From: a virus
IMG/VR virus record: IMGVR_UViG_3300049218_000292
Location: 1 to 42,011 of that record
Reading direction: 5' to 3' (one strand)
Length of the DNA: 42,011 nt
In this document: positions 1-40,546 of the stretch, one piece after another
Layout of the letters: the number at the start of each line of letters is the position of its first letter
Numbering within the stretch: position 1 is the first letter of the stretch
Position numbers and translations under genes: made by a program
The notes under the pieces: model-generated
What the model was told of the DNA's origin: nothing
The model's database searches: none
The model's input: the letters and a program-made list of their open reading frames with translations, nothing else

Positions 1-3000
1 TCGACCGGTTGCGGCTTGGCGATCGTGCGCTCGGAGAAGATAGCGGCTTTAGTGGCCGTCTTCCCGGCACTGTCGTAATGCTCCAGCGCCGACAGCATCG
101 GCAAATCCGGATCGTCGGCAAAGGCCACGCGGTTTGCCGTGAGGCTGATCGGCCCGTACTTCTTTACGAAGTCGTCATAGACTTGGTTGAGCTTGGTGCG
201 CGCGGCCTTGATCCGGGCATCCGATGCTTCCTCTATCTGGGTCTTGAAAACCTCGTGCACCGCGTCGCGAATCGGGATCATGCCCTTGACGCGCTCGGCG
301 GCCTTGCCACTCAGCGCCGCCGGACGGTACAGCGAGCCTTCCCGCCGGACAATGACGCCATTCCTGATGGCGTAGCCGCCTTCCTTCACCGGATCGCCCA
401 GCGCCGCGATTTCATTGCCTTCGAAGGCCGGCGTTTCCGCTTTCCAGGGCTGCCAGATATGGCGCGGCAGTTTTTGAATCGCCGAGGAAAGAGCTTCCTC
501 TGTGAGGTTTCCCTTGACCGCCAATTCCTTGCCGTCTCCGCCATACATCGTGCCGGCCGCCGTGAGCTGGCCCAGCACCATCTGGGGATGCTCTTGGAAA
601 TATTCGTTGACCGGGACGGAACCGTCCTTCAATTGCACCTTGCTGGCTTTCGTCCACGGTTCGCCCGAGGGAGGTTCACCCGGCGCGCGCTTGCGCAGGA
701 AGACCAAGTCCGTCGTCACTTCCGTTCCGGCATTCGCTTTAAAAGCGGTGTCCGGCAAACGGATGGCTCCCAAAAGGTCGGCGTGTTCGGCGAGATATTC
801 GCGGACTGCCGGATCGAGCTTGTCCAGCGTATAGTGGCTCGTGATGAACGCGACGATGCCGCCCGGCCTCACCAGGTCAAGCGATTTGGCGAAGTAGTAA
901 TCGTGAATCGCGCGCGTCAGTTCCGGGTGCTTCCGGTATTTGGGATCCGCCACACCGAAGTTGCCGAAGGGCACGTTCGAGATGGCGACGTCGAAGAAAT
1001 TATGGGGCAGCGCCACCTTCTGATACGGCGCGTTCTGGATGTTCGAATCGGGATAAAGCGCTTTGGCGATCGCCGCCGTCACCGGGTCCATTTCGATGCC
1101 GGTCCGCCGGCTGGGCAGCAGCGAATCCGGCTGCAGTCCTAGAAAGTTGCCGGTGCCCACTGCCGGCTCGATCATCGTGAAGCCCGGCTCCAGACCCATG
1201 TGTTCGAGCGCCGCCCACATCGCGCGCACCACTTCGGGCGAAGTGTAGTGCGCGTTCATGGTCGAAGCACGCGCGGCGGCAAACTCTTCCGGCGTCAGCA
1301 GCGCTTCGAGATCGGCGCGCGGCCCGGCCCACTCGCGCTTGCCGTAATCAAAGATCTGCGGCATCCCGCCCCAGCCGACATAGCGCACCAGTTGCCGGCG
1401 CTCGTCTTCTGTGGCAAGACGGTCTTCCTTTTGGAGCTGTTTGACGATGCGGATCGCGGCCAGGTTCAGATGCAGGCGCTCGCGCGCCGTGCCTTCGCCT
1501 ACATGGTCTCCGGCGGTGATTCGCCAGTCCCGGCTGCTAACGTCTCGGGTAAGGTCGCCGGGTCGAACGAGAGGCTCGGCTGGCTCTCTTCGTCCGGCAG
1601 GAGCGCCCACTCTTCCCGGATCATTTCCCAGGCCTGGTTGTACGGTATCTTCTGGCTGAGCAACTCGCCCATGGCGTCCCCTGTCAGTTGCGCCGCCGCT
1701 TCCACGCTCGCCAGCAGCAGGCCCTTCTTCTTGAGGCCCGCGCACATCTTGGGACGGAACTCCAGCCAGTGCTTGAGTATTAGGCTGGCCATCGGGTTGC
1801 TGGGCTGTTGGCTTTCCGGATCCATGCGCCTCTATTGTCGGCCCGCTGGCCGGTTCGGCGCCAGTACCCGTGGTTGCGGCGGGCGTAGGCTCCGCCGTGG
1901 TCTTCGCCGCTGGCGTGGCTGCCGCCTGCCCGGCAGAGGCGTGATACGCATCAAGCGCCGCCTGCGCTTCTGCCCGCGTATCGAAAACTCTGGGCTTCAG
2001 TCCTACGAATCCCGGCCCGGAGATCTTCGCCTTGGCGATGTCTTCGTCCGTGGCCGGGCTTCCATCCTTGCGGACCAAATGGAGATGCGCCGGGATCTGC
2101 AGCGCTCCGCCGATATGCCACTTGCCGTTAGTGCCTTGTTCCGGCCTCAGCGAAGGAGTATCGGCAGCCGGTTCGAGCGCTTGCACGTCGGCGGAAGTCT
2201 TGATGTCCTGGCGCGTGAGAATCCGCTGGAAACCCGTTCCGCCATCCTTCATCGTGATGCGCTTCACGCCGCCCGCCTTTATCAGCCGCACCAGGGCATC
2301 GTTCAGTTCTTTGTAGGTGTGCGCTTCAGAGGTCGCGAAGAGTTCCGGCAGAGTGAACTCGCTGACCGGCCGCCGTCCGAGTATCTTTTTTACTTCGGCT
2401 TCAGCTGCTTCTGCTGGCTTCGCATTCGGTGGGTGTTCGGCAGATTTACTTTGCGGTTTTCTTTCCGGTTTCGGCTCCGGCCTCGCTTCCTCGGCCGTTT
2501 GCGTTGCCGTGTTTGCGACGGCGCGAACGCGCGTCTTGTCGAGCGGGAAACCGTCCCACACCTCCGCGCCGGGCTGGTAGCCGACGTCCACCTTTGTGCC
2601 GCCCTCGTCGCGGATGACAAAGCCGCGGCGCGCTTCGCCGTGGGCCGTGGTCCACTCGACCGGTTCGCCGGGCTGGAACCGGGGCAAGCGTTTGCCGGCC
2701 GCCTGTTCGTTCTTGCGGTGCTGGACGCGCGCGAGTTCTTCTTGGATGAGTTCCGGCGTGGTCGGCACGGTTTCGCCCAGATCGAGGAGCTTCAGCGCGC
2801 CGTGCGCGTCCCGGCCGAGGTTCTCGCCGCTGGTGTCCACAAACAGGCCCGTGTCGCGCGCGATCCGGGCGTAGTGCTCGTGGATCTGATCCTCGGTCAG
2901 ATCGCTCGCAACCGGAAGCTTGCGCGCAATCTCCATCCCGACCGGCCCCACCGACTCGCGGTGCAGCGCCGGGTTGGCGTATTTTCCCAGTTGCCGTTCC

Positions 3001-6000
3001 ACGGCCTTGAGCGCCGGGGTGTCGTCTTCGCCGCCCACAAACGGCCGGATCTTCAGAACGTTGCCGTGACCGATGTCCCAGACTTCCTGCTCGATCCCGC
3101 TTCCCAGGAACCGCGCATCCTGGCCATCGCCATAGGCGCGCGACAAGCGCTTCACCGCCGAGGCGATCAAGGCCACGTCGCGATCGGTGGGCTGTGAAAA
3201 GCCGGGCACTCTCTTCGCGAAGCGCTGGATGCTCCGGGCGATCCCGACCGGCGACACCGGACTGTTTTCCCTGTTGCCCTTTCCGGTTTCGTCCGTCTGT
3301 TGCGATTGAGTTGGTAGCGGGGCAGCGGCCTGATTGGGCTCGTCGACCATGGCGACGGGCAGCGTCTTACGCCCGGCCAGTTGCGCGGCCAGCAGGCGCC
3401 GGCTCCCCGCGCTGATGACGATGTGGCCGTCGTCGTCCCGCTGTCCGGCGAGCGGCGGCGGTTCGCTGCCGGCCCGCAGCATCTGGGCGTAGCGCTCGGC
3501 GTCCGCTACCTTGTCGGGCATTCCGCCGATGTCTTCCATCGGACGGATCTCGGAAACCGGCACTTCCCGGATCACCATCCCGGGACCGACGCCGCCTATT
3601 TTGTCGGCGGCGGTGGTGACCCCGATTTGCGGAAAATCGCTAGCGCCGCTTTCCGCTTTCGGCTCCGGCGTGCGATTAAGAGATTGAGCCGCTGCCGGCG
3701 CTTCGGACGGTTTGGCTTCCGCCTGGAGCTTCCCCAGCATGTCCAGAACGCTTAAGTCGTGATTGCCTTTTTTGTCCAGATACGCCGCATAGGCTTGCCG
3801 GAGCTTGTCAAACGACGGAACGGTGGCCGGATCGAGGTCCTGGTTCCGGACCAGGAGGTCATAGTCGCCCTGCCGGAATTGCTGCTTCCATTTCTCGCCT
3901 TCGGTCATGGCGGGAGTTTCGACCGGTTCTTCCGGCCGTCCGGTTTCCGGCATCCGGTCGTCCTGCTTGACGGGAACGCGCTTCTCGCCCAGGTCTTCGC
4001 GGTTGTTCTGCTTGTCCAGCCAGTTCGTCAGGTTCGGCAGATTCTTATCCGGCGCGAAAGCCAGATAGGTGCCATCGACCGTGGACGCGCCCAGACCGTA
4101 CTCAGCGATGTGCAGCCGTTCGAGGCTGTTCACGCGGCCCATGTGAATCGGGAAGCCGCGCTTGTTCGCTTCCTTGAAAATCCTGATCCAGGCCATCTCC
4201 TCCGGAGAGCCCGCTTTGGCGTGGGTGCCAATCTTCCATTCGGTTGACCCACCGATGAAGAGGACATCCATCTTGTGCCAGGGAATCGAATCGGCCATAT
4301 TCTCCAGGCCGTCCTGCGTGGCGAAGGCGACCGGCAGGCCGAGCGCATGAATCTTGTCGGCCCACTCGTCGAACAACTTGATGGTGCCTGCGGCATCGCC
4401 CAGCACGTCGGGAGCCACGACAAAACGGACCTTGTTGGCGAGTTCCGGACGCTCGGCCACGGCTTTGACCAGCGCCAGGAACTTATCGGGATCGAAGGGC
4501 GTGGACTTCGAGAAGACTCCGTTATCAATGGCGATGACGGGATAGTGCTCCGCATGGTGCAGGAAGTGCGTCACCAGCGGCGTCACCATCAGGCCGATGT
4601 CGCCGCGCTTTTCAGCCGCCGCCAGAACCTTTGGGTTGTGAACGCCGGTTAAATAAGCGACCGGCCATCTCCTCCCCGTGCGCGGATCGCGGGCAACTGC
4701 GGGCGCGACGTGATCCGGTATGGCTGCTTCTGCCTCTTTCGCAGCCTTGCGATCAGCGGTCCGCTGTTCGGGAGCCTTGCGCTCCGGCTTATCGCCTAGA
4801 ACTTCTTTTTCGGTTTTCGCATCATCGGCACGGGCGGCGGAGCCTGCATCAGTTGCGTGTGCAGATTCCCCATCATTTTCGGCGGCCCTGCCGGCCTTGT
4901 CGGCTTCGGCGCTTTCGGGGCTCTCAGCGGTGGCGCCGCTTTCGGTGCCCGGCTTTTCCTGCCCTTGTCGCCCGGTAGTCCCGAGCCCATCCACGGAAAC
5001 TGTGTTCCTGTTGTCATTGCTGCTTTCCTCTTTTCTTGCGTGTTGTGGCTTTGTCTGTTCTGACTCCGGTAAACCGAACGCCGCGGCAAACGCTTCCGGC
5101 TGCGTCGGCGGCTCGAAAAACTTGACTTGCGCGCCCTCGCGCGAGCTGTCCGCATCCCGCGCGTAGCCGCGAAAGGCCTTGGCCGCGGCGTTCTGCGATT
5201 TCTGCAGCGTCCTGGCGATCGCCAGCACTTCGGGCGAATAGCCTCTGCTCAGACCGTGGATATCGCGCTGGCTGGCCAGATCGTCCAGATTGGCTAGACC
5301 GTGCGCCTGGGCGTCGGCCAGCGCCGCCACCGCTTCGCGCGTGGGCTGAACCAGATCCCAGTCCGGCCGGTCTTCGACGCGCAGCAGATGCGGCGCGATG
5401 CGCTCCAGCTTGTTTCGCATCTCGGGCGGCGTTTCGCGCATTTCCGCGGATGAATTGTAGAGGCGGCCGACCAGCGCCTTAGCGATGCGGTCCTTGGCGG
5501 TGCCGGTCAGTTCGCCCTTGTCGTTGAGGTAGCCGTTGCGCTGGCCCAGCGTGATCACCCCATCGCTCACCAGGCCGTCCACGATCCGGGTGCCGTTCTC
5601 GCCCTTGAGTGATTCCGCGAGCGTCGCATCGGGGCCGACCTCTCCGAGGTTCGCCGCAATGTGGCCGACGGTTTTGGCCGAGATCCGGCGCCCGTCCGCG
5701 ACCGCCTGTTCTTCGGGCGAAAGATTCGCGCTCGAACTCTTGTTGAAATCGGTGATGGCCTTCTGCGCCATCGCTTTGGTAGGCGTGCCGGTCAGCTCGC
5801 GCACCAGCACCGGATTCCGGAAGCGGTCCAGTTCGGCCGGGTCGATGCCATGGGTCAGCGCCTGCTCCTTGAGCCCGGCGCGGTAGGCGGCGGCCGCTTT
5901 CGCGTTGCCCGCATAGACGCGCTGGATCGACATGGTGCGGTTATTGCCGCCGAGCACGTTGCCGCGCTGGTCGATGATGGGCGCGCCCTGTTCGGCCGTC

Positions 6001-7868
6001 GGGGAAGCGGTCAGCGCCAGGCGCGGCTTGAAGTTGCCGGCGTGCTCGACGACGCGGCCGCGATTCTCCTTGGTCGAATAGTCCCGGTCGTTTTCGTAAT
6101 CGTAGTGGCCGTTGCTTTGAAAGGTCTGCGGATCGTGCGAAGGCTGAATGTCTGAGCTTTCGCGCACCGCATAGCGGGCCGGGTAGGTGGTGCCTTCGTC
6201 CGGCACTTCTATGTCCACCGGCTTGCCGTAAGCGGGTGGAACGGCGGGCGCGCGTTCCGGCAGTTCCGTGTTCATCTCGGCGTCGGTCGGCCGGGGCGGC
6301 GGCGGAGGCTTTAATTCGGGCGCTTCGGCCTGGAGTTCGGCGAGCTTGCTTTTGACCGCCTCCAGCTGCTGTTTCGCGGTCGCCAGGTAGTTGCGCAGAT
6401 CGGCGATTTTGCTTTTAGGCGCGTTGTATTCCCGCGCCTTTTTCAGATCCGTCTGCAGCTTGTCTACTTGCGCGTCCAGATTGTCCGCGATTTTCTGATG
6501 GCCCTGCCGGAATTCGTCGGCCGAAGCGGGCCGCAGCGTGCTCGTGGGCACCACGCGCTCGGAACCGTCGAACCCGGCGATGCGCGTATATTCGTTGCCT
6601 TGCAGTTTCGTGACTATGCCGGGCGTGCCGATCTCCGCCGGTACGTCGGGAAGCGGTTTGCCTTCGAAGTCCACACGCCCCAGCACGGCATCCTTCGCGT
6701 CGGCCATGACGCGATCGCCCACCTTCAGCGCATTCCCGCCTGCCGGTTGCGCGGCCTGATTGCTGTTTGTATCGGCGCTTGCCTCGGGCGCGCTTTCCGG
6801 AGGCGGCGTTGCGCTTTCCTGCTGCCGGACCTGAGCGGTCGAAGGATTCAATTCTTCGGCTGTCGGCGTCTGCGCCTGAGTGCGCTGGACGCCCTTGCTT
6901 TCAAGCCAGGTCTGTACATCCCGGCCGTTGCCGGTGAAAAGCGTCTTGCCGTCGGCGTCCAGCACCGTATAGCCAGGCCGTCCGGCGCGCGTGCCCGTAG
7001 TGGCCGCTACTTTCCAGCCTTGTGTGCCCGGCAGATCGATGCCATCGTCGGCCCCCAGAATGGTCTGCCCAGTTTGCTTGGCGTTTGCCGCCTTGACGTC
7101 TTCGTTGATCAGCTTCTCGGCGGTCGCGTTGTGCGCGTCGATGGCGTCAGCGAGCTTGCCCTCGGCGATCTTGTAGCCGCCGTACAGAATCGGCAGGGAG
7201 CCCGCCACTTCGCCGGTTTCCCGGGCGTCCTCGTCGTTCATGCCGGAGGCCTTGGCGCCCGCTTCCCCGAGTCCGCTCAAGCCCTTCGACATCGCGTACC
7301 AGGCGGCCGCGTCGACGGGAGCCGTCACGCCGAGGCCTGCGAATACAGGCGAAGCGGCTTGCATTCCACCTAGTAAGACTTTCCCCGCGCCGCGCAGCTT
7401 TTCCGCGCCATCCGGCTGGGCCATCTGTTCCACGCCGTGCCCGATTTGCGTAACGCCGGCCGTGGGTGAGTCCAGGATCGGAACCTGGGCGAGATCGCCG
7501 CCCACGGTGGACCGCTGTCCGGTGCGCGGGTTGATGAAGCCGCCCGGTTGCTGCAATTCCTGCGGAGTGTAGCCGCGCAGCTCATGCGGGATCTTGGCGA
7601 GCGCGTCCTGCTGCATCCGCTGACGGCCGATTTCCGTTACGCGGTCGATGACCTGTTGGGCGCTCAGAGTGGCGTCGTTAACCGCATCTTGCGGACTGGG
7701 CAGGCCAGCCAGCGCCGGATGGATGGGCGGAGTGGCCGGGGCTGCTGGGACTTGTGTAGCCGGAGATGCAGTTTCGGGTTCGGTTTTCGCGACGGCCCAC
7801 GGGTCAGCTTCGGCTGACGCGGCGGCCGGCTCGGTCTTGACGACATCCCAGGGGTTGACCGCCGTCAT
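1..7868 (-). CDS. Giant polyvalent phage protein: ParB, DpdA/TGT-like, kinase and N6-MTase domains (3' end outside window)
   Basis: One frame stays open from ATG 7868 to the window edge, 2,622 codons without a stop. Approximate residues: 160-235 Gly-rich hydrophobic stretch; 375-445 SH3/KOW-like; 450-520 coiled coil; 550-655 DdrB-type ParB domain (SHDP, IIDxxGNVLGGNNRTM near 640) with helical tail to about 925; 1053-1287 DpdA/TGT-like domain (IDNG D1115, APDV D1154, GGSTEWK 1206-1212, VDGT D1265); 1428-1508 second ParB-like domain; 1538-1714 polyvalent-type kinase (FLGSG loop, K1606, DLG D1696); 2112-end N6-adenine methyltransferase (EPAVGTGNF near 2234, NVPFG at 2298 as NPPY variant). P1 DarB-like proteins continue into a SNF2-type helicase, expected beyond position 1. 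ATG directly follows the upstream stop (TAAATG). Likely role, inferred: an injected protein that protects or modifies phage DNA. Linkers are Ala/Pro/Glu-rich and two hold ORFs in other frames. Confidence 0.88.
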   Translation of the reverse strand, partial: MTAVNPWDVVKTEPAAASAEADPWAVAKTEPETASPATQVPAAPATPPIHPALAGLPSPQDAVNDATLSAQQVIDRVTEIGRQRMQQDALAKIPHELRGYTPQELQQPGGFINPRTGQRSTVGGDLAQVPILDSPTAGVTQIGHGVEQMAQPDGAEKLRGAGKVLLGGMQAASPVFAGLGVTAPVDAAAWYAMSKGLSGLGEAGAKASGMNDEDARETGEVAGSLPILYGGYKIAEGKLADAIDAHNATAEKLINEDVKAANAKQTGQTILGADDGIDLPGTQGWKVAATTGTRAGRPGYTVLDADGKTLFTGNGRDVQTWLESKGVQRTQAQTPTAEELNPSTAQVRQQESATPPPESAPEASADTNSNQAAQPAGGNALKVGDRVMADAKDAVLGRVDFEGKPLPDVPAEIGTPGIVTKLQGNEYTRIAGFDGSERVVPTSTLRPASADEFRQGHQKIADNLDAQVDKLQTDLKKAREYNAPKSKIADLRNYLATAKQQLEAVKSKLAELQAEAPELKPPPPPRPTDAEMNTELPERAPAVPPAYGKPVDIEVPDEGTTYPARYAVRESSDIQPSHDPQTFQSNGHYDYENDRDYSTKENRGRVVEHAGNFKPRLALTASPTAEQGAPIIDQRGNVLGGNNRTMSIQRVYAGNAKAAAAYRAGLKEQALTHGIDPAELDRFRNPVLVRELTGTPTKAMAQKAITDFNKSSSANLSPEEQAVADGRRISAKTVGHIAANLGEVGPDATLAESLKGENGTRIVDGLVSDGVITLGQRNGYLNDKGELTGTAKDRIAKALVGRLYNSSAEMRETPPEMRNKLERIAPHLLRVEDRPDWDLVQPTREAVAALADAQAHGLANLDDLASQRDIHGLSRGYSPEVLAIARTLQKSQNAAAKAFRGYARDADSSREGAQVKFFEPPTQPEAFAAAFGLPESEQTKPQHARKEESSNDNRNTVSVDGLGTTGRQGQEKPGTESGATAESPESAEADKAGRAAENDGESAHATDAGSAARADDAKTEKEVLGDKPERKAPEQRTADRKAAKEAEAAIPDHVAPAVARDPRTGRRWPVAYLTGVHNPKVLAAAEKRGDIGLMVTPLVTHFLHHAEHYPVIAIDNGVFSKSTPFDPDKFLALVKAVAERPELANKVRFVVAPDVLGDAAGTIKLFDEWADKIHALGLPVAFATQDGLENMADSIPWHKMDVLFIGGSTEWKIGTHAKAGSPEEMAWIRIFKEANKRGFPIHMGRVNSLERLHIAEYGLGASTVDGTYLAFAPDKNLPNLTNWLDKQNNREDLGEKRVPVKQDDRMPETGRPEEPVETPAMTEGEKWKQQFRQGDYDLLVRNQDLDPATVPSFDKLRQAYAAYLDKKGNHDLSVLDMLGKLQAEAKPSEAPAAAQSLNRTPEPKAESGASDFPQIGVTTAADKIGGVGPGMVIREVPVSEIRPMEDIGGMPDKVADAERYAQMLRAGSEPPPLAGQRDDDGHIVISAGSRRLLAAQLAGRKTLPVAMVDEPNQAAAPLPTQSQQTDETGKGNRENSPVSPVGIARSIQRFAKRVPGFSQPTDRDVALIASAVKRLSRAYGDGQDARFLGSGIEQEVWDIGHGNVLKIRPFVGGEDDTPALKAVERQLGKYANPALHRESVGPVGMEIARKLPVASDLTEDQIHEHYARIARDTGLFVDTSGENLGRDAHGALKLLDLGETVPTTPELIQEELARVQHRKNEQAAGKRLPRFQPGEPVEWTTAHGEARRGFVIRDEGGTKVDVGYQPGAEVWDGFPLDKTRVRAVANTATQTAEEARPEPKPERKPQSKSAEHPPNAKPAEAAEAEVKKILGRRPVSEFTLPELFATSEAHTYKELNDALVRLIKAGGVKRITMKDGGTGFQRILTRQDIKTSADVQALEPAADTPSLRPEQGTNGKWHIGGALQIPAHLHLVRKDGSPATDEDIAKAKISGPGFVGLKPRVFDTRAEAQAALDAYHASAGQAAATPAAKTTAEPTPAATTGTGAEPASGPTIEAHGSGKPTAQQPDGQPNTQALAGVPSQDVRGPQEEGPAAGERGSGGATDRGRHGRVAQPEDTVQPGLGNDPGRVGAPAGRREPAEPLVRPGDLTRDVSSRDWRITAGDHVGEGTARERLHLNLAAIRIVKQLQKEDRLATEDERRQLVRYVGWGGMPQIFDYGKREWAGPRADLEALLTPEEFAAARASTMNAHYTSPEVVRAMWAALEHMGLEPGFTMIEPAVGTGNFLGLQPDSLLPSRRTGIEMDPVTAAIAKALYPDSNIQNAPYQKVALPHNFFDVAISNVPFGNFGVADPKYRKHPELTRAIHDYYFAKSLDLVRPGGIVAFITSHYTLDKLDPAVREYLAEHADLLGAIRLPDTAFKANAGTEVTTDLVFLRKRAPGEPPSGEPWTKASKVQLKDGSVPVNEYFQEHPQMVLGQLTAAGTMYGGDGKELAVKGNLTEEALSSAIQKLPRHIWQPWKAETPAFEGNEIAALGDPVKEGGYAIRNGVIVRREGSLYRPAALSGKAAERVKGMIPIRDAVHEVFKTQIEEASDARIKAARTKLNQVYDDFVKKYGPISLTANRVAFADDPDLPMLSALEHYDSAGKTATKAAIFSERTIAKPQPV
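1499..1825 (-). CDS. Small protein nested in another frame inside the polyvalent gene
   Basis: A 108-residue frame starting at ATG 1825, preceded by AGAGG three to four bases upstream, lies inside the giant ORF on the same strand. Its residues look like a genuine protein: a helical body with WLEFRPKM, then AWEMIREEWALLP, a pattern I associate with short conserved proteins of mobile elements. Third codon positions are strongly G/C here, while the giant frame over the same bases reads as Gly/Pro/Arg-rich sequence without domain character. It ends at TAG 1501-1499, just inside the start of the methyltransferase domain. The function is unknown. It could be an independently translated gene within an interdomain linker, or a sign that the polyvalent ORF is really expressed in pieces. 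Confidence 0.65.
   Translation of the reverse strand: MDPESQQPSNPMASLILKHWLEFRPKMCAGLKKKGLLLASVEAAAQLTGDAMGELLSQKIPYNQAWEMIREEWALLPDEESQPSLSFDPATLPETLAAGTGESPPETM
4796..5017 (-). CDS. Possible 73-aa Pro/Lys-rich protein nested in the polyvalent gene
   Basis: ATG 5017 follows a good ribosome-binding site (AAGAGGAAAGCAGCA before the ATG) in a frame different from the giant ORF. The 73-residue product is rich in Pro, Lys and Met, with PKAP-type repeats and a basic end (RKPKKKF). It has no domain I recognise. The overlapped part of the giant ORF, between the DdrB-ParB and DpdA-like domains, is low-complexity Ala/Glu/Ser linker. Both frames have G/C-rich third positions, so codon use does not decide between them. 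The start signal is the main argument. Basic proline-rich composition would suit nucleic-acid binding, but that is a guess. Confidence 0.45.
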   Translation of the reverse strand: MTTGTQFPWMGSGLPGDKGRKSRAPKAAPPLRAPKAPKPTRPAGPPKMMGNLHTQLMQAPPPVPMMRKPKKKF

Positions 7869-9493: not shown

Positions 9494-10075
9494 TCATCCC
9501 ATGAGCGCGGCCAGCATCAGGGAGTCCATGAGCCCGGAGGCGGCGCCCGCCGCCTCGCTGCCCGGCTCCACATAGGTGCCGTTGCTTGAACTGTTGCCGC
9601 TGGTCGAGCCCATGCTGGTGCTGCCCGGAGCCGCGAAGCCGAAGGCCGTCGCCTGCGCGATGGCATTCTGCTGCTGCTGCAGCGCGTAGCTCTGCAGGCT
9701 GCTTTGCAGGTCGCCTACCGCGCTGGTCCGCCCCAGTTCAGTTTGCAGCGCGGCTGTTCCGCTTGCCCCCGAGTTTCCGAACCCTCTTTCGCCCAGGCTT
9801 TGCTGGAGACTGGTTCCCTCGCCCGCCGCTGTCTTGTTGATCGCGTCCGTTCCCGAGATGGCCATCGGAGTCGTGTCGATTCCGTTCGTCATCTCGTTCT
9901 GCAGGGCCGCTCCCGCCGACGACTGCAGCCCGGTCTGAATGGGGTTGAAGGTCGGCGTGGTCGTCCCCGATTGGGACTGGGAGTTCGTCGAATTGGATGA
10001 TTGGGTTCCGGTCCGCGCGGCCGTTGTGTTCGAGAGCGCGCCCAGCAGGCCGCCGAGCCCTGTCATGACTGCCAT
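9494..10075 (-). CDS. Gly/Ser/Gln-rich virion protein, gp14-like internal protein candidate
   Basis: A 193-aa protein starting with a hydrophobic glycine motif (GLGGLLGALS), then Ser/Thr/Gln-rich sequence, a helical Gln-rich centre (LQSSLQSYALQQQQNAIAQATAFGF) and a hydrophobic C-terminus (GLMDSLMLAALMG). Hydrophobic, small-residue-rich ends of this kind are common in DNA-transfer or internal virion proteins that enter the host envelope, but no family-defining motif is visible. ATG 10075 has AGAGGA nine bases upstream. The neighbouring acetyltransferase frame reads right through the first 340 bases of this gene without stopping. Confidence 0.7.
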   Translation of the reverse strand: MAVMTGLGGLLGALSNTTAARTGTQSSNSTNSQSQSGTTTPTFNPIQTGLQSSAGAALQNEMTNGIDTTPMAISGTDAINKTAAGEGTSLQQSLGERGFGNSGASGTAALQTELGRTSAVGDLQSSLQSYALQQQQNAIAQATAFGFAAPGSTSMGSTSGNSSSNGTYVEPGSEAAGAASGLMDSLMLAALMG

Positions 10076-10607
10076 GTAGAAAATCCTCTTTCGTGATTCC
10101 GGCCATGACGAGATCCGTCAGGCGGCCGGCGCATCGGGTAAAGCTCTTGAGCGTTCCCTCTTCGGGAATGCCCACGCGCCGCAGCAGAGCGCGTATCCGC
10201 CAGTTCGTCGCCAGCACCGGACAGCTCACGCGTTCGAAGCCCGCCGCGAAGATCTGTTCGAGGCAGAGTCTGATTGCGCGGTCCGTCGTCTGGCGTCCCG
10301 TGGCCCACTTGGCAAAGAAGCAGTGGCCGATGCCCGAGATCTCGTTGACCGGCTCGAAACTCAGCCAGCCGCACAGAATGCCTGCGCGCCGCACGCCCCA
10401 CGTTTTGCCGCCGTTCAAGTCAATCCGGGAAGCGTGTTGAATCAGTGCATCGGTTGAGCGCAAGGCGAAGTCATCCGCCAGTTGCGGCAGGACGGGCAGC
10501 ACCCATTCCCACGCGACTGGCAGCGCGTAGGCGGGGAACGGCGTCACTAGCTCGATCGCCGGCGTGCGCAGGGCATGCGGCAACCGGGCGGAGACGATGG
10601 AGGACAT
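9738..10607 (-). CDS. GNAT-family acetyltransferase with an overlong C-terminus
   Basis: ATG 10607 is chosen because the repeated CAGGGGTAG element sits just before it and the protein character begins there. Residues 1-178 look like a GNAT acetyl-CoA-dependent acyltransferase: GVRRAGILCGWLSFEP strand pair, central helix TTDRAIRLCLEQIFAAGF, then the typical end (NWRIRALLRRVGIPEEGTLKS, RLTDLVMAGITKEDF). After that the frame continues for about 110 codons over the next gene in a sequence that looks like its shadow, giving 289 aa in all. Family members normally stop near the KEDF point. Either the overlap is real or a stop has been lost by a small indel. GNATs next to tail genes may modify virion or host components; the substrate cannot be read here. 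Confidence 0.7.
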   Translation of the reverse strand: MSSIVSARLPHALRTPAIELVTPFPAYALPVAWEWVLPVLPQLADDFALRSTDALIQHASRIDLNGGKTWGVRRAGILCGWLSFEPVNEISGIGHCFFAKWATGRQTTDRAIRLCLEQIFAAGFERVSCPVLATNWRIRALLRRVGIPEEGTLKSFTRCAGRLTDLVMAGITKEDFLHGSHDRARRPAGRALEHNGRADRNPIIQFDELPVPIGDDHADLQPHSDRAAVVGGSGPAERDDERNRHDSDGHLGNGRDQQDSGGRGNQSPAKPGRKRVRKLGGKRNSRAAN

Positions 10608-10609
10608 GG

Positions 10610-10625
10610 CTACCCCTGAAGTCGC
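10610..10625 (-). promoter_or_regulatory. GCGA-hairpin element, copy D (before GNAT gene)
   Basis: Reads GCGACTTCAGGGGTAG on the minus strand, two bases before ATG 10607. The AGGGG can serve as ribosome-binding site. The CT-x-C/G-x-AG fold is imperfect in this copy (T-T mismatch). It belongs to a set of five. Confidence 0.5.
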
Positions 10626-10714
10626 AGCCGTTGGGCGTCCTGTTGAGGACGCGCGCCGCTGGAATGAGGGAATTGTCTGGACGCGACGCTTCGGATCGGT
10701 TACCGTTTCTGTAT

Positions 10715-10954
10715 ATGGCTGCCGCCACCACCACCAAAAAATCGCAATCGAAGAAGAATCCGAAAACCGCCGCCCAGACCGGCCCGGCGAAAAGAGCTGT
10801 CGCGGCGAAGGGCGCCCTGTCGAAGGCGAAGAAGACCGTCGCCAAGGCGACAAAGCCCGCCGCCGCACGCGCCAAAACCACTACCGCCAAAACCGCTACC
10901 GCCGCCAGCGCCGGTAAGAAGGCAGCGACCGGAGCGGCCGCGGCCGCGAGCTAA
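10715..10954 (+). CDS. Histone H1-like Lys/Ala-rich DNA-binding protein
   Basis: A 79-aa protein made almost only of Lys, Ala and Thr, with repeats such as KKTVAKATKPAAARAKTT, very like the tails of bacterial histone H1 homologues (HctB/AlgP type). It would bind and compact DNA non-specifically. It is encoded rightward, opposite all its neighbours, in the gap between two leftward tail-region genes. This suggests a separately acquired and separately transcribed unit. ATG 10715 was taken because the Lys/Ala-rich sequence starts there; the upstream part of the same frame covers the GNAT gene in antisense. No clear ribosome-binding site is visible. The opposite strand gives a hydrophobic frame, which is the expected mirror of Lys/Ala codons. 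Confidence 0.6.
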   Translation: MAAATTTKKSQSKKNPKTAAQTGPAKRAVAAKGALSKAKKTVAKATKPAAARAKTTTAKTATAASAGKKAATGAAAAAS

Positions 10955-39103: not shown

Positions 39104-39472
39104 TCAGGCCCATGCCGCCGCTTCGCCCCGCTTGAGTTTGACGAGCGCCAGCGCCGTCAGCTCCACCAGCCGCTCCATTTCGTCGTAATAGCGGTCGTTC
39201 TGTTTCTCGGCCAGAAAGTGGGTGAGGTGTCCAGCCTGCACATGCAGCAATTCGTGGACGAGCGTCACCTCCAAATCTTTATTCCCCAGTTCGTCAGGAT
39301 CGATGAAGGCAGGTTCCCGGATGATGATCTCGGCGCTTTTGTACTTGGCGCACATCCGCACGTTGCCGAGGCCCTCGCTGTACTTCTCGAATTTGAGCGA
39401 TACGTCCCAGTCCTGGAGGCGCAGCCGCTGCTGCCACTCCGGCAGCAGCGCTTTCAGTTCGTGGTCAGTCAC
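39104..39472 (-). CDS. HELLH metalloprotease-like protein
   Basis: A 122-aa protein from GTG 39472. The sequence TLVHELLHVQAGHL (HELLH at 73-77) is a zinc-binding HExxH helix, preceded by the strand-rich part EIIIREPAFIDPDELGNKDLEV. A later E (DEMERLVE) may be the third ligand. It resembles small phage and mobile-element zincins (SprT-like or DUF955-like). These may process a capsid or repressor protein, but the substrate is unknown. GTGA overlap joins it to the sigma gene. Confidence 0.72.
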   Translation of the reverse strand: MTDHELKALLPEWQQRLRLQDWDVSLKFEKYSEGLGNVRMCAKYKSAEIIIREPAFIDPDELGNKDLEVTLVHELLHVQAGHLTHFLAEKQNDRYYDEMERLVELTALALVKLKRGEAAAWA

Positions 39473-40077
39473 GCCGCCTTCTTGCCGTTGCCGCCTTCGA
39501 TGACGCCGAGCGCCGCGCGCATTTTGGCGCGCGCCCGGTGGACCACATAATGGCTCCAGGCGCCCGACTTGCCCTCCCGCTTGCCGATATCGCGCAGGCT
39601 TTCGCCGTTGACGTGGCGGTCGAAGGCGCGGCCCTCGACCTCGTTGAGTTCGCGCCGCGCCCGCACCGCGTCAATGCACACCACCACCGATTGCTCGCGC
39701 TCGATCAGGGCGTCGAGCGGCGATTGGCGGTCCACCAGACATTCCGGCGTGCGCACCGCTGTTTCGCCGCCGCCGTGAAGATCCTGTTCGCGGCTGCCCT
39801 GCAGCCAGCAATCGGGCACGCCTTCCATGAGCCGCGGATAGTTGCGTCCGCGATAAGCGTCAATCATCGCGCCGCGGATGCGGAACATGGCGAAGACCGC
39901 AAAGTTGGCATGCAGATCCGGATCGAAGCGGTTGGCCGCTTCGCACAGGCCGACATTGCCCAGGCTGATCAGTTCGTCCATGTCGATCCAGGCCGGCAAT
40001 CGCCGCGCCACGCGGGACGCTACTTTCCCGACCAGATCCAGATGCGCGACGACCAGCGCCTCGGCTTGCGCCGTCAA
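39469..40077 (-). CDS. Sigma-70-family factor (FliA/WhiG-like region 2)
   Basis: A 202-aa protein from TTG 40077, which overlaps the previous stop (TTGA) and has AAGGGGG upstream. The region 2 signature is clear (HLDLVGKVASRVARRLPAWIDMDELISLGNVGLCEAANRFDPDLHANFAVFAMFRIRGAMIDAYRGRNYP, about 15-85), as in FliA/WhiG-type group 3 sigmas. The C-terminal part has a region 4-like HTH (VEGRAFDRHVNGESLRDIGKREGKSGAWSHYVVHRARAKMR). It is the second phage sigma factor in the window and may switch on middle or late genes. A longer upstream extension in this frame is only the antisense of the zinc gene. Confidence 0.78.
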   Translation of the reverse strand: MTAQAEALVVAHLDLVGKVASRVARRLPAWIDMDELISLGNVGLCEAANRFDPDLHANFAVFAMFRIRGAMIDAYRGRNYPRLMEGVPDCWLQGSREQDLHGGGETAVRTPECLVDRQSPLDALIEREQSVVVCIDAVRARRELNEVEGRAFDRHVNGESLRDIGKREGKSGAWSHYVVHRARAKMRAALGVIEGGNGKKAA

Positions 40078-40292
40078 AAGCCCGTTCCCCCTTGCACCTG
40101 CTTGGCACAGGGCAACGGATCTACGATCTCCGCTAGCTCGACAGTTGGCAGTTGGTAGCGCTTGCCGGCATCGCTGCAGGGCGCGTGGGACGGGTGCCGC
40201 AGGAAGAGCTCTCCCGTCTCCGGGACAAGCATCACCAGCGCGAATCCGCATTCCCGGCAGATGAACGGTCCGTAGAGAAAACAGATCTTCAC
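40074..40292 (-). CDS. Small zinc-type protein, left copy
   Basis: A 72-aa protein from GTG 40292, overlapping the upstream stop (GTGA). One CREC pair and two further Cys (PCSDAG, LPCAK) could form one zinc site. Identical to the copy at 40595-40813. It is directly coupled to the sigma factor. Function unknown. Confidence 0.6.
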   Translation of the reverse strand: MKICFLYGPFICRECGFALVMLVPETGELFLRHPSHAPCSDAGKRYQLPTVELAEIVDPLPCAKQVQGGTGF

Positions 40293-40546
40293 TCTTGCCC
40301 CCCCTGGCGGACGCGCTTGTAGAGCATCTCAAAACTTTCGAAGGTAATCAGTGACGTCTCCTTTTTTTTCTGGTCGGGTTCGAGCGTGCCCGTCAGCCGT
40401 CCAATCAATTCGAGGTTGCGGCGGCATTGGGCCACGGCTTTCAGCGCGACCTCGTAGCTGGGGTGTACTTGCGTCACCACGCCATCGGCATCCACGCGTT
40501 CCCCGCCCAGACAGCCTACAAGTATCTGGTCGCTGAGTTGCTGCAG
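40289..40546 (-). pseudogene. 3' fragment of the zinc/HTH (small terminase-like) gene
   Basis: Left-unit copy of the last 85 codons of the 186-aa gene at 40810-41370. No proper start: the N-terminal zinc and HTH part is absent because the duplicated unit begins inside the gene. A GTG inside could give a 68-residue product. Confidence 0.75.

Follow-up and report, generated by a model that had tools for sequence, protein, structure and literature searches.

The window analysed here is the whole 42,011-nucleotide stretch of the viral record IMGVR_UViG_3300049218_000292, one end of which is occupied by a giant open reading frame (ORF) on the minus strand. This ORF is the final gene of a late block that also holds terminase, major head, internal virion and tail-spike-like genes, the position behind virion genes that is expected for a packaged polyvalent protein, and it combines several unrelated enzymatic domains typical of that class. 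Its features, with conservation counted over 170 homologues of the barrel domain, are as follows.

3..7868, minus strand: polyvalent protein ORF, with its ATG at 7868; at least 2622 aa, the C-terminus lying off the record end
5793..6197, minus strand: ddrB-like ParB domain, residues 558-692 (Pfam PF18763, E 9e-23)
3996..4664, minus strand: DpdA/TGT-like (beta/alpha)8 barrel domain, residues ~1069-1291 (PHROG, AlphaFold2, Foldseek and hhalign)
4524..4526, minus strand: codon of D1115, after strand 3, in the IDNG motif (1114-1117); kept in 169/170 homologues, with DSG as the counterpart in DpdA/TGT
4407..4409, minus strand: codon of D1154, after strand 4, in APDV (1152-1155) of the PDVxGD motif; 170/170, aligning with LDVIGD of phage DpdA
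4314..4316, minus strand: codon of Q1185, after strand 5, in QDG (1185-1187); 170/170
4233..4253, minus strand: GGSTEWK loop (1206-1212) at the end of strand 6, aligned with the LGG loop of DpdA; G1207 in 169/170
4125..4145, minus strand: HMGRVNS (1242-1248), strand 7; H1242 in 167/170
4074..4076, minus strand: codon of D1265, the proposed nucleophile, at the end of strand 8 in VDGT (1264-1267); 166/170
3216..3506, minus strand: second ParB/sulfiredoxin-type domain, residues 1455-1551 (weak phrog_1033 and TIGR00180 matches)
9..1880, minus strand: DarB-like N6-methyltransferase region, residues 1997-2620 (phrog_10089, E 1.3e-162), interrupted by the record end

The presence of the ddrB-ParB domain and the DarB-like methyltransferase is clear, and the two stand together in one giant late phage protein just as they do in DarB/DdrB-type polyvalent proteins (PMC5512222). 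A second ParB fold is also supported, by PDB sequence matches that are all to ParB (E 0.025-0.13) and by a model (pLDDT 69) whose best Foldseek matches are ParB structures. The ParB and N6-methyltransferase partners foreseen in the original prediction are therefore present, whereas the kinase domain named beside them was found by neither Pfam nor PDB sequence search. We also asked whether the second ParB domain is specially related to ParB proteins of the DpdB type; no such relation was found, and we accordingly do not claim a built-in DpdA-DpdB pair. IMG/VR yielded no relatives of the window's ParB/kinase stretch or of its terminase.

Residues 1083-1292 match PHROG 15826 (E 1.5e-48), a large compact family of unknown function and about 210 aa. 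The motifs IDNG, APDV, GGSTEWK and VDGT, with D1115 and D1265, lie where they had been predicted, the one correction being that VHMGRVNS reads IHMGRVNS. The D1115/D1265 pair, on whose retention in relatives the prediction had been staked, is kept, and departures from the key residues among the 170 homologues occur in loci that are seemingly truncated or frame-broken. The window domain has zero cysteines, so that the zinc cysteines of the tRNA enzymes are absent, as had been noted, and the structural Cys3His zinc site of tRNA TGT is missing.

Structure prediction returned the TIM barrel that had been anticipated, with many TGT structures among the nearest solved matches. The AlphaFold2 model, built from an alignment of 61 sequences (window plus IMG/VR), is a confident one; it has a mean pLDDT of 90 and a pTM of 0.86, and its eight strands alternate with helices. 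The invariant residues gather at the C-terminal ends of strands 3-8, that is, at the barrel mouth, with P1153-D1154 after strand 4, GG 1206-1207 after strand 6 and H1242-N1247 at strand 7. Two catalytic-type Asp residues, a second base-binding Asp, a Gln and the GG loop follow one another in fixed order at these strand ends, as in the TGT superfamily; this is an order that we take to be that of the TGT active site. TGT structures make up most of the top 50 Foldseek matches in the PDB, at a TM-score of only ~0.5, but PdxJ and a handful of further barrels are mixed in among them with comparable scores, so that the fold alone is not decisive. Among viral models, the matches include phage DpdA and queuine tRNA-ribosyltransferases.

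The proposed lineup with the TGT fold holds for the order of residues; sequence similarity to tRNA TGT is undetectable, and the link runs via DpdA. The Pfam TGT model matches none of the 61 family members, and searches with Pfam, NCBIfam, PADLOC and PDB sequences gave no TGT match for the domain; the profile matches obtained are those to PHROG 15826 and, by hhalign, to DpdA. Against eight phage DpdA proteins, hhalign gave an E of 2.3e-6, pairing DNG with DSG, PDVVGDA with LDVIGDP and the GG loops with each other (E 7e-6 when E. coli Tgt was added to the set); the pairing of VDGT with VDSS is a manual match, the hhalign alignment there being offset by a few residues. Compared as a control with 370 ORFs from 16 loci, the family profile placed nine of its own members first, and DpdA proteins filled six of the eight positions behind them, the chance of which is ~3e-10; E. 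coli Tgt was not among the 40 best. Since E. coli Tgt does not stand out, we regard the relation to tRNA TGT as indirect, by way of DpdA. The phage DpdA profile itself finds 7ui4, a solved DNA-guanine transglycosylase from bacteria, only weakly (E 0.16), though at matching motifs. At the level of profiles, the similarity of the family to phage DpdA is specific but remote.

The domain shares with phage DpdA (Enterobacteria phage 9g, Mycobacterium phage Quesadilla gp2, Sonali gp87) the order of conserved residues (DSG, LDVIGD, LGG, HGFG and SxDSS in DpdA), in its standalone relatives the linkage to preQ0 genes and, in the aligned phage set, the lack of a zinc cysteine cluster, and a barrel fold is expected for both. 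It differs in size (~210 against 300-350 aa), in lying below tblastn detection, in its letters (DNG, PDVVGD, QDG, GGSTEWK, HMGRVN, VDGT) and in its fusion within polyvalent proteins. With Tgt (PF01702) it has in common the predicted fold and the order of catalytic residues, and it lacks both detectable sequence similarity and the zinc site. We consider the family and fold assignment very probable: inside a phage polyvalent protein sits a compact representative of the DpdA/TGT superfamily that lacks zinc, and from the TGT/DpdA pattern D1265 is the proposed nucleophile.

The family is widespread. Annotated phages carry standalone relatives of ~210 aa with 30-39% identity to the window domain, which several actinophage submitters name DpdA-like tRNA-guanine transglycosylase, and further relatives occur on plasmids. 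At least 567 members were found in IMG/VR, where a single-protein query gave nothing and an alignment of annotated relatives retrieved the family, and 83 in the genome collection. Standalone PHROG 15826 proteins such as GreaseLightnin gp55, Sonali gp81 and Aoka gp40 have every key residue at 35-39% identity and, unlike the window domain, are unfused single-domain genes beside preQ0 genes or a gene of the VUT family (PF02592), the YhhQ queuosine-precursor transporter family. The VUT gene adjoins the relative in two Streptomyces plasmids, GreaseLightnin, ReqiPine5 and Aoka; at 18/80 viral and 4/80 genome loci it precedes the relative on the same strand by no more than 400 bp. Across the phage collection, 15 of the 22 domain-bearing records also have VUT against 0.02 expected, a figure that overstates independence, the phages being related and falling into three lineages. 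Phage YhhQ homologues were reported earlier with no clear pattern by Hutinet et al. 2019 (PMC6884629), who also describe DpdA, DpdA2 and singleton DpdA proteins of unclear function.

Linkage to synthesis of the base is seen in viral contigs L066 (8186-10687) and L069 (8229-10633), where a QueC-QueE-QueD operon is followed by the compact DpdA-like gene and no classical DpdA or TGT was found elsewhere in the record; in L069, a thymidylate kinase gene lies immediately ahead of QueC. In Sonali and Vibrio phage R29Z, preQ0 genes and a classical DpdA accompany the small enzyme, which may therefore do something else there. GreaseLightnin, ReqiPine5, Aoka, Ssp-JY42 and R6L, whose genomes are complete, showed no further DpdA-type protein. 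Among relatives of GreaseLightnin, Mycobacterium phages Techage, Arib1, Brusacoram, Atcoo and LOCV1-5 are without the DpdA-like gene and have a transporter match of only 60-99 aa, which suggests that the two were lost jointly. A homologue followed by a PAPS-reductase-like gene is found both on a Paraburkholderia plasmid (L014:5848-8551) and in Rhodococcus phage ReqiPine5 (L008:6697-7614).

The window is not alone in bearing the fusion. Giant ORFs with the barrel domain occur in viral contigs L018/L019 (>4608 aa), L020 (>4763 aa), L021 (3407 aa), L023 (>5862 aa) and L025 (3549 aa), and a smaller fused form of 723 aa occurs in L024. The partners vary: L018 combines the domain with Kinase-PolyVal and inorganic pyrophosphatase, L025 with LPD1, and L023 with a helicase and a methyltransferase. 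Together with the window domain, these fused forms fall into one clade with support of 99/99, joined by a standalone ORF of 262 aa (L026). Although identity within the fused clade is only ~50%, none of its pocket residues varies, which argues for function. A separate fusion in L070 joins the domain to a PD-(D/E)XK-like stretch, with a VUT gene directly upstream (L070:9454-12592). The novelty lies in a well-supported clade of the domain that forms part of several giant phage proteins of differing assembly; the architecture is real, new and recurrent, and the kind of enzyme is known. The expectation that the fusion was undescribed is borne out in the open-access papers searched, in which we found no account of it, and in the survey of polyvalent proteins (Iyer et al. 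2017, PMC5512222), whose text mentions neither a TGT nor a queuine or deazaguanine domain; the domain family itself is not new, being known as PHROG 15826 and from the 'DpdA-like' actinophage annotations.

The preQ0 synthesis and transport linkage of the standalone relatives is absent from the window and the other giant-fusion records. As predicted, no preQ0 synthesis gene was found in the 42-kb window record, nor was a transporter or DpdA gene, and the five other giant-fusion records searched showed no TGT, DpdA, QueC or transporter gene; all of these records may be incomplete. Either the base comes from the host, or our reading is wrong.

Overall, we believe that the barrel domain most likely replaces guanine in DNA with a 7-deazaguanine, either preQ0 itself or a compound derived from it, and we put the probability of this reading, in which activity, DNA target and base identity are inferred, at roughly 0.6. 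During the exchange D1265 would form a covalent intermediate while D1115 and D1154 hold the base, and the domain would work alongside the ParB domains and the DarB-like adenine methyltransferase region of one polypeptide. Late synthesis of the polyvalent protein, its packaging in the head and its injection are probable, and phage DNA may be modified either ahead of packaging or soon after it enters the cell, using a base supplied by the host, which would protect it from restriction. The full picture, of a virion-carried giant protein in widespread tailed phages that combines the conversion of guanine to host-derived 7-deazaguanine with adenine methylation, is considerably more speculative, and we hold it as a tentative and rather doubtful proposal, its packaging step being drawn from gene position.

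The most serious competitor, though an unlikely one, is a base exchanger of the same superfamily whose substrate would be RNA (tRNA) of the host or the phage. The fold and the queuosine-precursor transporter linkage would fit tRNA modification equally well. Against this stand the sequence similarity to phage DpdA, with E. coli Tgt ranked outside the 40 best, the missing zinc site, and the fusion to DNA-directed domains, be it ParB and methyltransferase in the window or the PD-(D/E)XK nuclease-like stretch in L070. Mycobacterial hosts are without queuosine genes (PMC6884629). A salvage or glycosylase enzyme is also rather improbable. Here the same pocket would free or remove deazaguanine or guanine with no insertion, for example to feed DpdA or to make abasic sites in host DNA, which would suit both the adjoining transporter and the separate DpdA nearby in Sonali, R29Z and locus L063; yet in several complete phages and two preQ0 operons no other inserting enzyme was found.

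Modest TM-scores, with PdxJ equal to TGT, and the silence of the TGT profile could also mean that this is a different TIM-barrel enzyme merely resembling TGT, its motif order and neighbours being misleading. We consider this very unlikely, given the DpdA-specific profile match, the six conserved motifs in order at the strand ends, the recurring linkage to preQ0 and transporter genes, and the truncated transporter genes of sister phages that are without the enzyme. Finally, the fusion-bearing records without preQ0, transporter or DpdA genes might suggest that the domain has become a decayed passenger, or a mere binding module for modified DNA, in polyvalent proteins; that every pocket residue is kept in the fused clade makes this the least credible of the alternatives, and a most improbable one.

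If DNA base exchange is indeed the activity of the barrel, it joins the repertoire of polyvalent proteins, and two anti-restriction strategies are united in one molecule. Should the protein also be carried in the virion, base exchange would become an injected function, available at the moment of entry and independent of base synthesis encoded by the phage. The compact DpdA-like family, with several hundred viral members now identified, includes a two-gene module of transporter and small exchanger in cultivable mycobacteriophages, where its function is directly testable. Two other ORFs of the window deserve mention: a GNAT acetyltransferase-like ORF amid the virion genes (9741-10868, minus strand; Pfam Acetyltransf_3, E 6e-4, under the curated cut-off) and an ORF resembling an RNA polymerase sigma factor (39472-40332, minus strand; PHROG 351, E 4.5e-14).
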